From Victivallis lenta (GTDB lineage: Bacteria > Verrucomicrobiota > Lentisphaeria > Victivallales > Victivallaceae), in NCBI RefSeq assembly GCF_009695545.1, contig NZ_VUNS01000002.1, forward strand, positions 62,001 through 126,000: a stretch of 64,000 nucleotides of DNA. The letters run 5' to 3'. This document shows, piece by piece, positions 3,254 through 10,600 of the stretch; position 1 is the first letter of the stretch; the number at the start of each line of letters is the position of its first letter. The notes below the pieces were generated by a model. The model was given only the letters and a program-made list of their open reading frames with translations, was not told the origin of the DNA and searched no databases. A program made the position numbers and the translations under genes.

Positions 3254-4667
3254 CCCCGTGACGCCCGCCGCACCCGCCAACCGTTTCCGCGATTCCCTCA
3301 GCAACGGAGAATTCGTGCTGCTGGTGGAGAGCTCGTCGCCGAGCCTTTCGAACGACCCGATCGCGGCCGGCGAGCGCCTCGCGGCTTTTGAAGAGGCCGT
3401 GCTGTCGGTTTCGAACGTCAACACGGCGCTCGCCGTCACCGACCGCTACCTGTCGCTCGACGCCTGGCGCGCGGTCGAGTACGCGAACGCGCTGCGCGAG
3501 GAGAACCGGGACCGTCACGTCATCTACCTCTCCGGCCGCAACACGACCGGCGAGGAGCTGCGCCAGCTCTCCGATGCGGCCGCAAAGAGCCGCCTGTTCA
3601 ATGTGGTCCCGGTCAGCGGCAACTGCGTGCCGGGCGACACGCTCCGCGAATGCCGCAAGCGGGTATTTTCGGAGAGCGTCGGCGTGATCCGCAACCTCGC
3701 GGAGCGGAAGGAGCCGTTCTTTCTCGGCGGCACCACGAATCCTTACGCCTATACGCCGTTCACGATGATGGGGCAGTATTTCAAACTGGTCAAGAAGCTC
3801 AATGCCGGGGCCTCCTTTGTGGTGGCGCAGGCGGGCTGGGACATGCTGAAGCTTCAGTCGCTGCGCTGGTATTTCTCGGGCCGCAGCCTCTTTTACCCGA
3901 TGATCGCCCGCCTCGTGCTGCTGACACCGAATCTGGTTGAAAAAATCCTGGCCGGAGAGTATCCCGGCATCAATATCTCGCCGGACTTCCAGAAAATTCT
4001 CGAGAAAGAGCTCCGTTATTCGCTGAACCAGTTCGAAGCCGCGCAATACCGGCGGCTCGAGCTGCAGGCGGCGGGCTGCCGGCTGCTCGGCTTCAGCGGC
4101 ATTCAACTGGCCGGGGCGGAGACGCCCGGCCGCGCGAAAATCGCGGCGGAGCGAATCGGCAACGCGCTCCGGGAATTCAACAGCTTCGACAGCTGGCTCG
4201 AGGAGTACAACTCCTACCTGGCCCGGGCCGAGATGTCGCCGTTCACGGGGAGTTTCTACCTGTACGACCACACGCTGCGCCGGGCTTATCCGGATGAGGA
4301 GATTCCGGTCGCCCGCGACTTCGGGGAACCGGAGATCACGCCCGGCGAAAAATTCCGTTTCAAGCTGCGCCGTTTCCTGTTCCCGCATGCCGACCGGCAG
4401 CGCGCCGAGTCGCGGCGGCTGCTGAAAAAGCTATTCGCCTCGTGCCGAGGCTGTTCGAGCTGCCGGCTGCCGAAAACCGAGTTCATCTGCACGGAAGGCT
4501 GTCCGAAACGGCTGCCGAACGGCCCCTGCGGCGGTGTGAAACCGCATGGAAACTGCGAAATCGCGCCCGGCGAATGCGTGCACAGCCGGATCGTCCGCCT
4601 CGCCCACTGGAACGGGACGCTGCCGGCGCTCGAGGACGAGATCCTCGATTCCGGCCGGGACGACTGA
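3246..4667 (+). CDS. Methylenetetrahydrofolate reductase with C-terminal MTHFR_C cysteine domain
   Basis: A 473-residue protein in two parts. Residues 1 to about 380 look like the MetF TIM barrel, with VLLVESSSP, SGRNTTGEELRQLSDAA, FFLGGTTNPY and FVVAQAGWD. The last 75 residues are a cysteine-rich MTHFR_C domain: CRGCSSCRLPKTEFICTEGC, then CPKRLPNGPCGG and CEIAPGECVHS. MTHFR_C domains are found in methylenetetrahydrofolate reductases of anaerobes, often with a separate electron-transfer partner. The enzyme would reduce 5,10-methylene-THF to 5-methyl-THF for methionine or C1 metabolism. It overlaps the upstream gene and is followed by a DUF1015 gene after 45 bases. Confidence 0.8.
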   Translation: MSDPVTPAAPANRFRDSLSNGEFVLLVESSSPSLSNDPIAAGERLAAFEEAVLSVSNVNTALAVTDRYLSLDAWRAVEYANALREENRDRHVIYLSGRNTTGEELRQLSDAAAKSRLFNVVPVSGNCVPGDTLRECRKRVFSESVGVIRNLAERKEPFFLGGTTNPYAYTPFTMMGQYFKLVKKLNAGASFVVAQAGWDMLKLQSLRWYFSGRSLFYPMIARLVLLTPNLVEKILAGEYPGINISPDFQKILEKELRYSLNQFEAAQYRRLELQAAGCRLLGFSGIQLAGAETPGRAKIAAERIGNALREFNSFDSWLEEYNSYLARAEMSPFTGSFYLYDHTLRRAYPDEEIPVARDFGEPEITPGEKFRFKLRRFLFPHADRQRAESRRLLKKLFASCRGCSSCRLPKTEFICTEGCPKRLPNGPCGGVKPHGNCEIAPGECVHSRIVRLAHWNGTLPALEDEILDSGRDD

Positions 4668-6030: not shown

Positions 6031-6204
6031 GGAGCGGCCGGAGGGAGCGGCCGGATTTTATGCGCGTCTCTCCTCTTGCCGGTTCCATTTTTCGTCATTT
6101 GATTGTTTTGTGCGGTTTTTTGATTCGATTGTCATGGAAAATCCGCACTTTCCCGAGTATTCTATATCCGTACCCTGAAAATCAATCCAAAACAGAGGTG
6201 GGAT

Positions 6205-9200
6205 ATGGAAACTCTTTACGCTGCCGACAACCGGAAAAAATTCGATGCGGTTTTCGCATCGCCGGGTGCTCTTTACCGCGACACGCCGTTCTGGGCGTGG
6301 AACTGCGATCTCGATCCGGAGGAGCTCAAGCGGCAGATCCGCGTGTTCAAGGAAATGGGCATGGGCGGTTTCCATATGCACGCCCGCACCGGGCTCGGCA
6401 CGCCGTACCTGAGTCCCGAATTCATGGAGCGGGTCAAGGAGTGCGTCAGCACCGCCAAAGAACTCGATATGCTCGCCTGGCTCTATGACGAGGACCGCTG
6501 GCCCTCCGGCGCGGCGGGCGGACTGGTCACCAGAGATCCGAAATTCCGGGCCCGCCACCTCCTGTTCACGCCCGAAAAGCGCGAAGCCGCGCCGGACGCC
6601 GCCAACGACAACTCCGGGCGCTTTCTCGCCGCCTACTCCGTCAAACTCGACGCCTCCGGCGCGCTCGAGAGCTACAGGCGCCTCGGCGAAGACGATGAAC
6701 CTGAAGCCGGAGCCGGGAAGTTCTACGCTTACCTTATCGTCGCCGAGCCGCATCCGTGGTTCAACGACCAGACCTATGTCGATACGCTGAATCCGAAGGC
6801 GATTGAAAAATTCGTCGACGTGACCTACGAAGCGTATTTCAAGGCGGTCGGCGGCGAGTTCGACAGGACCGTTCCGGCGATCTTCACCGACGAACCGCAG
6901 TTCACCCGCAAAAGCGCGCTCAAATTCGCGCAGGAAAAACGCGATGCGGTGTTCCCGTTCACCGACGACCTGCCGGAAACCTACCGCGAAGCCTACGGCG
7001 CGGACCTTCTCGACACCTTTCCCGAAGTGATCTGGGAACTGCCGGACGGCAAATATTCGCTCGCCCGCTACCGCTATCACGACCACGTTTCGGAGCGGTT
7101 CGCCTCGGCGTTCGCCGACACGATCGGCAGCTGGTGCGAAAAGCACGACATCCGCTTCTCCGGACACATGATGGAAGAGGGGTCGCTCGAATCCCAGACC
7201 TGCGCGCTCGGGGAAGCGATGCGCAGTTACCGCTCGTTCCAGCTGCCCGGCATCGACATGCTCTGCGATGCGTACGAGTTCAGCACCGCCAAGCAGGCGC
7301 AGAGCGCTTCGCGCCAGTTCGGGCGCGGCGGCGTGCTCTCCGAACTCAACGGCGTAACCGACTGGGACTTCGACTTCAAGGGGCACAAGGGACATGGCGA
7401 CTGGCAGGCGGCGCTCGGCGTAACGGTCCGGGTCCCGCATCTCTCCTGGCTGTCGATGGGCGGCGAAGCGAAGCGCGACTATCCGGCCTCGATCAGCTAT
7501 CAGTCGCCGTGGTACAAAAAATATCCGATCATCGCGGATCACTTCGCGCGGGTCAACGCCGCGATGACCCGCGGCCGCGCCCGGGTGCGGGTCGCCGTCG
7601 TGCATCCGGTCGAATCCTACTGGCTCGCCTACGGGCCGCAGGACATGACCGCCGGCAAGCGCGAAATGCTGCACGAAACTTTTGAAAGCCTGATCCACTG
7701 GCTGCTGCACGGACTCGTCGACTTCGACTTCGTGGCGGAATCGCTGCTGCCGGAGCTCTCCCCCGTCCAGCTCGGCAAAACCTTTATCGTCGGGGAGATG
7801 GGCTACGATGTGGTCATCGTGCCGCCGACCCTCACGCTGCGCGGCTCGACGCTGGAGCGGCTCGAAAAATTCCAGGCGGCCGGAGGCCGGGTCATCTTCG
7901 CCGGCGACGTGGCGGTCTGCTGCGATGCGGTCGAATCGGACCGCGCGAAGAAGCTGGCCGAAAAGTCCGAAACCATCCCGTTCACGCGGAATGCCGTCCT
8001 GACCGCGGTAAACAATCTGCGCGACGTCGCCGTCATCCGCAGCGCCGACGGCTACCCGATGGATAAGCTCCTCTACCAGATGCGCGAAGAGGGGGCGGAC
8101 CGCTACTTGTTCCTGGTCAACACCGAACGCCTCGGCCTCGCCCGCGACGTGATCGTGAAGGTGCGCGGCAGCTGGCAGGTCGAATATCTCGACACCATGA
8201 CCGGCGAATCGAAGCCGGTCGCAGGGCGGCAGGAGAACGGCTGGACGCTCTTTGATTACGCGATCTATCCGCACGGGCACCTGCTCGTGAAACTGACGCC
8301 GTCGGACGAGTGCAAAGGCGAACGGATCGGCACCCCGCTGCTCACCGACGCGCAGGCCGAAGCCGCGACCGAAGCACACCTGTCCGGAACCATTCCGGTG
8401 TCGCTCGACGAACCGAACGTCCTGCTGCTCGACCGCCCGAAGTGGCGCATGGCCGGCGATGCGGAGTGGCAGCCGGCCGAAGAGATCCTGCGGCTCGACA
8501 ACAAAGTGCGCGCCCGGCTCGGCCAGCGCGAGCGCGGCGGCCACATCGTGCAGCCGTGGGTCTACGGCAAATCGACCGAAGTGCTCGGCACGCTTGAGCT
8601 CGCCTACACGATCGAAACGCTGATCGATGTCGAATCTCCGCTCTTCGCGATGGAGGAGCCCGACAACGCCGAACTCTTCCTCGACGGCGTGAAAGTCCCG
8701 TTCGAGGACAACGGTTACTGGACCGACCGCTCGCTGCGGACCGGTTTCCTGCCGAAGCTGACCGCCGGAACGCATGAGCTCGTCGTGAAAATCGCCTATA
8801 CGCGCTCCGGCAACGTCGAGCGCTGCTTCCTGCTCGGCGATTTCGGCGTCGAGCTGCGCGGCGACACGGCCCGCATCGTCGAACCGGTCCGCGAACTCGT
8901 CTGGGGCGACGTGACCCGGCAGGGACTGCCGTTCTACGGCGGCAACATCACCTATCACTGCAAATTCATGCAGTACGAGGCGGAAAAGCTGCTGCTGCGG
9001 ATTCCGTCGCGCGTGACCAGCATGCCGGATTCCCTGAACAACGGCGTCGCGGCGCGCGAAGTTCCGCTCGGCGGCTACCGCGGCGTCCTCGTCAGCGCCG
9101 CGCTCGACGGCAAACCGGCGGGAGAGCTCGCGTTCGCCCCGTACCAGAGCGAACTCGGGGAAGTCGCGAAGGGCGAGCATACGCTCGATCTGACGCTCTA

Positions 9201-9357
9201 CGGCAGCCGGGTCAACAGCGCCGGCTCCGTGCATCTGACGTTCCGCATCCGCTGGGCCGGCCCGGGCGCCTGGCGGACAGAGGGCGACATGTTCAGCTAC
9301 GACTACCAGGTCCAGCCTTTCGGCATCACGGCCGCGCCGCGGCTGCTGAAGAAATAA
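6205..9357 (+). CDS. GH106-like glycoside hydrolase (alpha-L-rhamnosidase type), cytoplasmic
   Basis: A 1050-residue protein whose N-terminus (PFWAWNCDLDPEELKRQ, then MGMGGFHMHARTGLGTPYLS) matches the barrel start of GH106-type alpha-L-rhamnosidases and related uncharacterised hydrolases. Further barrel features are WLYDEDRWPSG, PAIFTDEPQF and FSGHMMEEGSL. The middle holds a glutamine amidotransferase-like stretch (YDVVIVPPTLTLRG), and the C-terminal 250 residues look like a galactose-binding beta-sandwich. No signal peptide is visible, unlike the other hydrolases in the window, so it should work on imported oligosaccharides. An AGAGGTGGGAT site precedes the ATG. The gene stands alone and ends at a terminator. 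The exact substrate is uncertain. Confidence 0.7.
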   Translation: METLYAADNRKKFDAVFASPGALYRDTPFWAWNCDLDPEELKRQIRVFKEMGMGGFHMHARTGLGTPYLSPEFMERVKECVSTAKELDMLAWLYDEDRWPSGAAGGLVTRDPKFRARHLLFTPEKREAAPDAANDNSGRFLAAYSVKLDASGALESYRRLGEDDEPEAGAGKFYAYLIVAEPHPWFNDQTYVDTLNPKAIEKFVDVTYEAYFKAVGGEFDRTVPAIFTDEPQFTRKSALKFAQEKRDAVFPFTDDLPETYREAYGADLLDTFPEVIWELPDGKYSLARYRYHDHVSERFASAFADTIGSWCEKHDIRFSGHMMEEGSLESQTCALGEAMRSYRSFQLPGIDMLCDAYEFSTAKQAQSASRQFGRGGVLSELNGVTDWDFDFKGHKGHGDWQAALGVTVRVPHLSWLSMGGEAKRDYPASISYQSPWYKKYPIIADHFARVNAAMTRGRARVRVAVVHPVESYWLAYGPQDMTAGKREMLHETFESLIHWLLHGLVDFDFVAESLLPELSPVQLGKTFIVGEMGYDVVIVPPTLTLRGSTLERLEKFQAAGGRVIFAGDVAVCCDAVESDRAKKLAEKSETIPFTRNAVLTAVNNLRDVAVIRSADGYPMDKLLYQMREEGADRYLFLVNTERLGLARDVIVKVRGSWQVEYLDTMTGESKPVAGRQENGWTLFDYAIYPHGHLLVKLTPSDECKGERIGTPLLTDAQAEAATEAHLSGTIPVSLDEPNVLLLDRPKWRMAGDAEWQPAEEILRLDNKVRARLGQRERGGHIVQPWVYGKSTEVLGTLELAYTIETLIDVESPLFAMEEPDNAELFLDGVKVPFEDNGYWTDRSLRTGFLPKLTAGTHELVVKIAYTRSGNVERCFLLGDFGVELRGDTARIVEPVRELVWGDVTRQGLPFYGGNITYHCKFMQYEAEKLLLRIPSRVTSMPDSLNNGVAAREVPLGGYRGVLVSAALDGKPAGELAFAPYQSELGEVAKGEHTLDLTLYGSRVNSAGSVHLTFRIRWAGPGAWRTEGDMFSYDYQVQPFGITAAPRLLKK

Positions 9358-9398
9358 CGCCCGGTCGCCGCCGGTTGAACCGGCGGCTCCGCTATGGG

Positions 9399-9445
9399 AG
9401 AAAACCGGAGTCAGGCGTATCCGGCGCGCCGGGCCCCGGTTTTCT
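9399..9445 (+). terminator. Rho-independent terminator after the GH106-like gene
   Basis: AGAAAACCGG at 9399-9408 pairs with CCGGTTTTCT at 9436-9445, followed by TTTCC. A second perfect 10-bp inverted repeat (GCCGCCGGTT / AACCGGCGGC) lies just upstream at 9367-9387. The region lies between convergent genes and may serve both. Confidence 0.6.
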
Positions 9446-9504
9446 TTTCCGCCCTGCGCCCCGGAACAGGCGCGGCCGCCGAACGCAGCGGCATTATCGC
9501 CTTA

Positions 9505-9665
9505 GAGCTTATCCCGAAATAAGCCAAATCATCCTGATTTGCTGCGAAACGCCATTCGTTTGCCCGCTGAAATCGCCGATACCTCCAGTATCGTCAATTT
9601 TATCCGGCTTCGCGACTGACATTTCGGTGCGGCATCATGCCGATTCTTTATTCATGGATAAGCTC
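9505..9665. mobile_element. MITE-like element, 161 bp, with 10-bp terminal inverted repeats and TTA target duplication
   Basis: GAGCTTATCC at 9505-9514 is repeated inverted as GGATAAGCTC at 9656-9665. The inverted similarity continues imperfectly inward (CGAAATAA against ATGAATAA). TTA flanks both ends (9502-9504 and 9666-9668). A GAG-starting end and a 3-bp TNA duplication fit the IS1031 group of the IS5 family. The inside is more AT-rich than its surroundings and encodes no transposase, so it would need one in trans. The right TTA is the complement of the TAA stop of the adjacent membrane protein gene. This element fills most of the 308-base gap 9358-9665. Confidence 0.65.
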
Positions 9666-10322
9666 TTACGCCGGGCGGCGGACATAGAACCAGAGCCGGA
9701 TTCCGCGGACGCGGCGGAGCAGAAAACGCGTGAAGGTCCCGACCAGCAGCGCCGCGAACAGCGTCCCTTCGCGGAGGCCGCGGATTTCAGCGAGGAACAG
9801 CACCGACAGAGCAATTGCCGTCAGAACCAGCGATATGTCGAAGCAGATTTTGACCGTGCCGAACTCCCGGCCGGATTTGCCGGCGATGGCCTTGACCATC
9901 CCCTCCCCCGGAATGTACATCACATCCGCGACGATCTGCAGACTGATCCCGGCGGCCAGCAGCAGACACCCGGCCACCAGCTCGGCGACCTGAAGCGGAT
10001 ACAGCCCGGTCTCCAGCGGCCCGGTCAGCCACATGCCGAGATCGATGAAGAGCCCGAAAATCCCGGTCGCCGCGATCTGCAGATACTGAACCGCCCGGAA
10101 TTCACGGCGGAGCAGCGCGACCTGTCCGGCCACCAGCAGGAGGTTGACCAGAAGCGTCAGCAGCCCGAAGCTCAGCGGGAAAACGAAAGTCAACACATAC
10201 GGCACGCTTGAAATCGGACTGGTTCCGAGTCCGGCCCGGGTGGTCAGCGCCACGCCGACGCCGGCCACGGCAAGCCCGGCGGCAAACACCGCCCAGCGCC
10301 GTCTTCTGTCATCCTGATACAC
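9666..10322 (-). CDS. YitT/YczE-like multi-pass membrane protein
   Basis: A 218-residue membrane protein with about five to six hydrophobic segments. Recognisable parts are GVALTTRAGLGTSPISSVPY, LQIVADVMYIPGEGMVKAIA and GTVKICFDISLVL, as in YczE/YyaS/YitT-type proteins, whose role is not established. The start is placed at GTG 10322, which has a GGGAGG ribosome site 8 bases away and leads directly into the first helix. The longer open frame upstream has no such site and reads as low-complexity basic sequence. Its stop codon coincides with the target duplication of the MITE-like element. Confidence 0.75.
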   Translation of the reverse strand: MYQDDRRRRWAVFAAGLAVAGVGVALTTRAGLGTSPISSVPYVLTFVFPLSFGLLTLLVNLLLVAGQVALLRREFRAVQYLQIAATGIFGLFIDLGMWLTGPLETGLYPLQVAELVAGCLLLAAGISLQIVADVMYIPGEGMVKAIAGKSGREFGTVKICFDISLVLTAIALSVLFLAEIRGLREGTLFAALLVGTFTRFLLRRVRGIRLWFYVRRPA

Positions 10323-10436
10323 TCCGGACCTCCCTTTCTCCGCAAGCCGGTCTTTAATATACACCCGGACCGGTGTTTCCGCAACCGGGCATTCACTCGC
10401 GCCGGAGCATCCGGCGCCGTTTTCTCCCCCGAACAT

Positions 10437-10464
10437 TTGCAAACGAGGAAAGAGGCGGTATATT
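10437..10464 (+). promoter_or_regulatory. Putative promoter of the hybrid histidine kinase gene
   Basis: TTGCAA at 10437-10442 and TATATT at 10459-10464 are 16 bases apart. This predicts a 5' leader of about 130 bases before the chosen ATG at 10601. The leader is non-coding as far as can be seen. Confidence 0.5.
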
Positions 10465-10600
10465 AGCCAAAGAGGATTCAAACACAATCAAGACCTGCCG
10501 TATTTCCGGTTCCATCAGACAGTTGGCTCGAAACAACCGTATGAACTCCGGGCCGGAAGCGGTTTCCGCCTCCGGCAGACAGGCAGACACGGCAAAGAAC

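Follow-up and report, generated by a model that had tools for sequence, protein, structure and literature searches.

What is the 161-bp stretch of DNA that sits exactly on the stop codon of a membrane protein gene in Victivallis lenta, and is its position an accident of this one locus or a trait of a whole family of elements? The locus lies in the window, the 64,000-nucleotide stretch that was analysed from genome G000 (5.5 Mb in 78 contigs). A sequence-only reading had taken the insert for a MITE with perfect 10-bp ends that used the stop trinucleotide of the gene as its target.

The insert and its host gene

Positions 9502–9668 of the window read TTA, GAGCTTATCC...GGATAAGCTC, TTA, and the features of the locus are the following.

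9502..9504, no strand: left copy of the target duplication, TTA
9505..9665, minus strand: MITE of 161 bp, an imperfect palindrome from end to end, whose minus-strand RNA folds more stably (-63.2 versus -51.1 kcal/mol)
9505..9514, plus strand: left terminal inverted repeat, GAGCTTATCC
9656..9665, minus strand: right terminal inverted repeat, GGATAAGCTC on the plus strand
9666..9668, minus strand: right copy of the target duplication, TTA on the plus strand and TAA stop of the minus-strand gene
9666..10487, minus strand: DUF6198 membrane protein gene (open reading frame; the gene caller places the start at 10436), whose stop codon is the target

The two ends match as an inverted repeat at 10 of 10 bases, and the left end is followed by CCCGAAATAAGC, which contains an internal ATAAGC repeat. 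The inside of the element is AT-richer than its surroundings, as had been claimed, with 47.8% GC against 63.3% for the window. Across the 5.5-Mb genome there are 29 occurrences of the end sequence GAGCTTATCC, compared with one of its reversed control. A plus-strand open reading frame (9375–10211) crosses the element and is part of no called gene. MITEs are generally under about 600 bp, and the insert has the appropriate size, the inverted ends, the target duplication, the lack of transposase coding capacity and the dispersed copies of such an element. Since further copies carry their own TNA duplications and IS5-family partners exist (see below), the 161-base insert is confirmed as a real mobile DNA element.

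The minus-strand frame 9666–10487 terminates in TAA, which is the plus-strand TTA at 9666–9668; the right-hand TTA is thus the reverse complement of the stop codon, just as the sequence-only reading had it. The gene, described there as YitT-like, matches PF19700 (DUF6198) above cut-off, and the NCBIfam model “membrane protein YczE” below cut-off only. Two homologues with 47–48% identity end in TGA and carry no element. No exact empty site for the window copy was found in the relatives examined, where the two neighbouring genes are not adjacent. The upstream gene is present in six relatives, and is followed by different sequence in all five whose downstream region was inspected.

As to the suggestion that such an insertion may bring terminators or promoters, of the four terminator-like matches in the region, three fall within the element, on the plus strand, and no promoter-like site was found. 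An Rfam scan of 9300–9900 gave best matches that were far under the gathering scores and outside the element. Separately, a strong stem followed by T residues at 9400–9444, behind the plus-strand gene 6205–9357, is likely to be an intrinsic terminator that is independent of the element. The minus strand also has a 1058-codon antisense open frame (6058–9234) opposite a 1050-codon plus-strand gene, whose protein has matches of 59–82% over nearly the full length in six relatives.

Copies in relatives and partner insertion sequences

The sequence-only reading had proposed a search for other copies and for an IS with the same ends, and both were found. Genome G075, a congener, has near-identical copies, three of which are 94–96% identical to the window element, and others that are more diverged. 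Diverged copies are also present in G070, G012 and G013. The five copies in G070 (66–68% identity) were matched with the window query only; a G075 copy used as query against 137 genomes of the order gave matches in four of them (G000, G075, G012 and G013). There are seven full copies in G000 and G075 together, one in the former and six in the latter (on contigs C17, C19, C35, C3, C7 and C30), and G000 also has forms of 61 and 62 bp. The idea that full copies lie in the sense direction behind genes was not upheld, their orientation being mixed.

Target duplications were examined in 37 elements, a set that does not include the copies on C3, C7 and C5 of G075, any of the five full copies of G070, or those of G012 and G013. 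An exact TNA duplication was found at 25 of the 37, consisting of TAA/TTA in 24 cases and TGA in one, and the base after the duplication on the TAA strand is G in 18 and A in 7 of these 25, and nothing else. Seven of the 12 imperfect duplications retain T and A and differ in the middle base alone (p 0.07; not used as evidence). Flanks were compared for 23 of 31 prepared loci. Those of L039 and L040 (G000:C2:308058 and G000:C7:102595) match many places in G000 (on C3, C4, C8, C16, C20, C49 and more) at 74–88% and belong to another family of dispersed intergenic repeats, about 200 bp long, and those of L058 and L061 (G075:C2:236487 and G075:C53:9890) match many places in G075 at 80–97%, again a dispersed intergenic repeat.

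The window’s own genome contains two IS left ends, both at contig ends and each after TTA, of which only the left ends are assembled. They have 15–17 of their first 17 bases in common with the full copies and lead into a start codon and MATTKAWEVSDGFW. Related IS ends occur in 10 of the 137 genomes, G000 included. An intact IS was found in G067: it is 905 bp long, is flanked by TTA on both sides and encodes a transposase in two overlapping frames that matches the IS5-family models PF13340, PF13586 and NF033580, although the second frame, taken by itself, reaches 104.2 where the cut-off is 110. The MITE can be classed as a probable IS5-family derivative, as it shares its ends with an IS that codes for an IS5-family transposase, and its mover was probably an IS5-type transposon. 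The IS1031 subgroup of IS5, which the element had been said to fit, is characterised by a TNA duplication and GAG ends. The MITE has both; the left end of the G067 IS is GAT, and the transposase matches resolve to the IS5 family only.

Two other candidates for the partner were rejected. L112, at the end of G075:C9, was dropped because its sequence beyond the first ~22 bases recurs alone in many genomes; here, at 3512–3635, a MITE end has been interrupted, about 22 bases in, by another IS whose own sequence is present in many genomes of the order. The IS5-type IS at L051 (G000:C24) was set aside because its ends differ. Its IS5-type transposase is a different one, encoded by two overlapping frames (about 1049–1803), and lies beside a second, transposase-like gene of another type.

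Short palindromes, stop codons and hairpins

The same ends are also found in 22-bp palindromes, of which there are 16 in G000 and 13 in G075, with exact TNA duplications at 19 of the 29. A pattern with two 8-base arms around an unconstrained six-base loop, applied to 78 genomes, matched 16 times in G000, 11 times in G075 and once each in G070, G005 and G056, and its reversed control matched once (in G025). A second pattern, with a fixed loop and three mismatches allowed, brought G075 to 13; six of its matches in G075 and one in G000 were excluded because their ends resemble those of longer elements.

These palindromes are most likely terminal-only remnants of full elements, because the products predicted from a deletion of the core match the commonest of them exactly. 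When the deletion is computed from the internal ATAA(GC) to the matching letters of the opposite end, the product is 22 bp long for 10 of 10 full copies. The products predicted from the close G075 copies agree at every base with the commonest remnants; copies whose products are identical to observed remnants are L070, L076 and L080. Four remnants in G000 have loops for which that genome has no matching full copy. Elements with the 6-bp repeat are represented by 29 remnants and seven full copies in G000 and G075, and those with the 4-bp repeat by one remnant and five full copies in G070 (p 0.005, Fisher), a difference that is confounded with lineage. No site proved to be occupied by a full copy in one genome and by a remnant in another, and core deletion in place is therefore not seen directly. 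One remnant is shared between two genera: L052 (G005:C58:8922) and L067 (G075:C26:55391) have the same 22-bp sequence on the same stop codon with closely matching flanks, which reflects either transfer or a misplaced contig.

The use of a stop codon as target, proposed for the window copy, is a family-wide pattern and no one-off. Of the 29 remnants, 16 coincide exactly with a stop, which in eight cases is the duplicated TAA triplet and in the other eight a TAG formed from TTA and the element’s first G. By comparison, 65 of 620 TAAR sites outside genes are stop-associated (10.5%; 464 kb of G000 and G075), a fivefold excess for the remnants (p 3.8e-9). The strictest count, of the TAA type alone, gives 8 of 29 against 56 of 620 (p 0.003); remnants with exact duplications give 9 of 19 (p 5e-5), and adding the longer elements gives 19 of 37. 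None of the 37 elements is inside a called gene, compared with 830 of 1450 TAAR sites. The counts were made with a purpose-made gene caller that was trained on the window and applied to G075 too; it missed a 393-codon open frame that ends at L067, which is thus uncounted. L082 in G070, outside the 37, is also on a stop. Pfam domains were detected, at the thresholds used, in 15 of the 19 genes that end at an element, including genes for sigma-70, RibBA-type, YebC and PALP proteins. In the TAG half of the matches, some stops may have been created by the insertion itself; the gene at L048 stops about 12 codons short of its counterpart in G074.

At ten remnant loci, the gene ends of relatives were aligned, and no element was present in the stretches inspected. 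Remnants L060 and L062 of G075 are missing from G000, and L042, L047 and L049 of G000 from G075. Most orthologues stop within a few codons of the insertion point, and at L061 two relatives have the same TAA stop with nothing behind it. Exceptions are L041, where the right-hand gene ends 18 bases before the element, and L047, where the gene runs about three codons further than in two relatives.

The window element folds on itself over its full length, better than 200 of 200 shuffles (z -4.1), and its stabler RNA strand corresponds to the sense strand of the membrane protein gene. When ten copies are aligned, pairing extends to 96.6% of the cells, and both partners have changed in 13 of 59 pairs, the hairpin covarying between subfamilies. 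None of 500 shuffles reaches the pairing or covariation score, although 38 reach the number of double-change pairs and 428 that of pair types. The RNA is more stable on one strand in nine of the ten copies, the exception being L087. The ten copies represent about three lineages, so that a function for the hairpin RNA is no more than a possibility.

Explanations and known systems

The best account, to which we assign a probability of roughly 75%, is an IS5-type insertion at TAAR, followed by survival on stop codons and later deletion of the core. An IS5-type transposase acting in trans would move the non-autonomous MITE, recognising the common ends, duplicating TNA and preferring TAA with a purine after it. 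As TAA is a stop codon in its own right, and the first G of the element would turn the last two letters of TTA into TAG, the element could enter a stop without harm to the protein. We infer that insertions inside genes would be lost by selection and that those on stops would survive in excess, without any targeting of stops as such. After insertion, the long palindrome would be unstable, and slippage from the short internal repeat (ATAAGC or ATAA) to its counterpart in the opposite end would remove the core, leaving a 22-bp palindrome between two TNA copies.

The stop excess may go beyond survival, either because gene ends attract the transposase machinery or because a hairpin behind the stop benefits the host mRNA. 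This is a tentative possibility, suggested by the fivefold excess over other intergenic TAAR sites and by a covarying hairpin with a preferred strand. However, harm from other intergenic insertions may yield an equal excess, the full copies have no consistent orientation to their neighbouring genes, the alignment spans few lineages, and copying from arm to arm can also keep a palindrome matched. It is unlikely that the 22-bp palindromes are mobile themselves, the unit being one complete end plus a degenerate second end, with the long forms dispensable. They outnumber the full copies 29 to 7 in G000 and G075, most have exact duplications, no site is common to the two genomes among those compared, and for Haloquadratum the authors of PMC3119063 consider that a 52-bp terminal-only form may be mobile. 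Nevertheless, two ends would overlap within 22 bp, the match of the second end to the IS end is partial, the sequence is exactly as core deletion predicts, and the subtype with the 4-bp repeat in G070 shows the reverse ratio. The most far-reaching picture, of a family living on stop codons, whose TAAR target and G-first ends rewrite stops harmlessly and whose 22-bp hairpins are both self-mobile and active in mRNA, appears improbable. That no transposon is involved, and the palindromes are protein-binding sites or transcription terminators under selection, can be given hardly any credence: their shortness, their location at gene ends and the three terminator-like matches in the window element would suit it, but the TNA duplications, the IS with the same ends, the lineage-specific presence at orthologous genes and the absence of an Rfam match within the window element argue against it.

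Several known systems resemble this family in part. IS5-family MITEs of bacteria are likewise short and non-coding, with IS5-family ends and a 3-bp duplication, but the present family differs in its full-length palindrome, its predominance of 22-bp remnants and its strong stop-codon excess. When Tn10 undergoes nearly precise excision, a deletion spanning short repeats within its inverted-repeat ends leaves a small scar, as was demonstrated experimentally; the scar here is similar, but the evidence is comparative. REPs are linked to RAYT. The GTAG REPs, too, are short palindromes located at the ends of genes, and their terminus often provides a TAG stop (PMC3733652), but the end sequence differs, and the TNA duplication and IS5-type partner point to another transposition system. 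The PATEs of Haloquadratum walsbyi lose their core through repeats to give a very short, 52-bp palindromic remnant of the termini only (PMC3119063); they are of IS605 type and have neither inverted ends nor a duplication, whereas IS5-type ends, a TNA duplication and a 22-bp remnant are found here, which excludes the family from the PATEs. ERIC, RUP and BOX are imperfectly palindromic, MITE-like intergenic repeats with stem-loop RNA forms, but have other ends, partner transposases and duplications (PMC2229807, PMC3049150). This family and its degree of stop-codon residence were unmatched in the literature searched, which covered few subscription papers. The kind of element is already known; the MITE family, with its unusual location pattern, appears to be new.

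The family offers a countable case in which the target and the end sequence of a transposon suit the genetic code, so that insertions into stop codons are harmless. At least 29 tiny scars make past insertions readable where the full element is nearly gone, and such 22-bp palindromes could be mistaken for regulatory sites or terminators.
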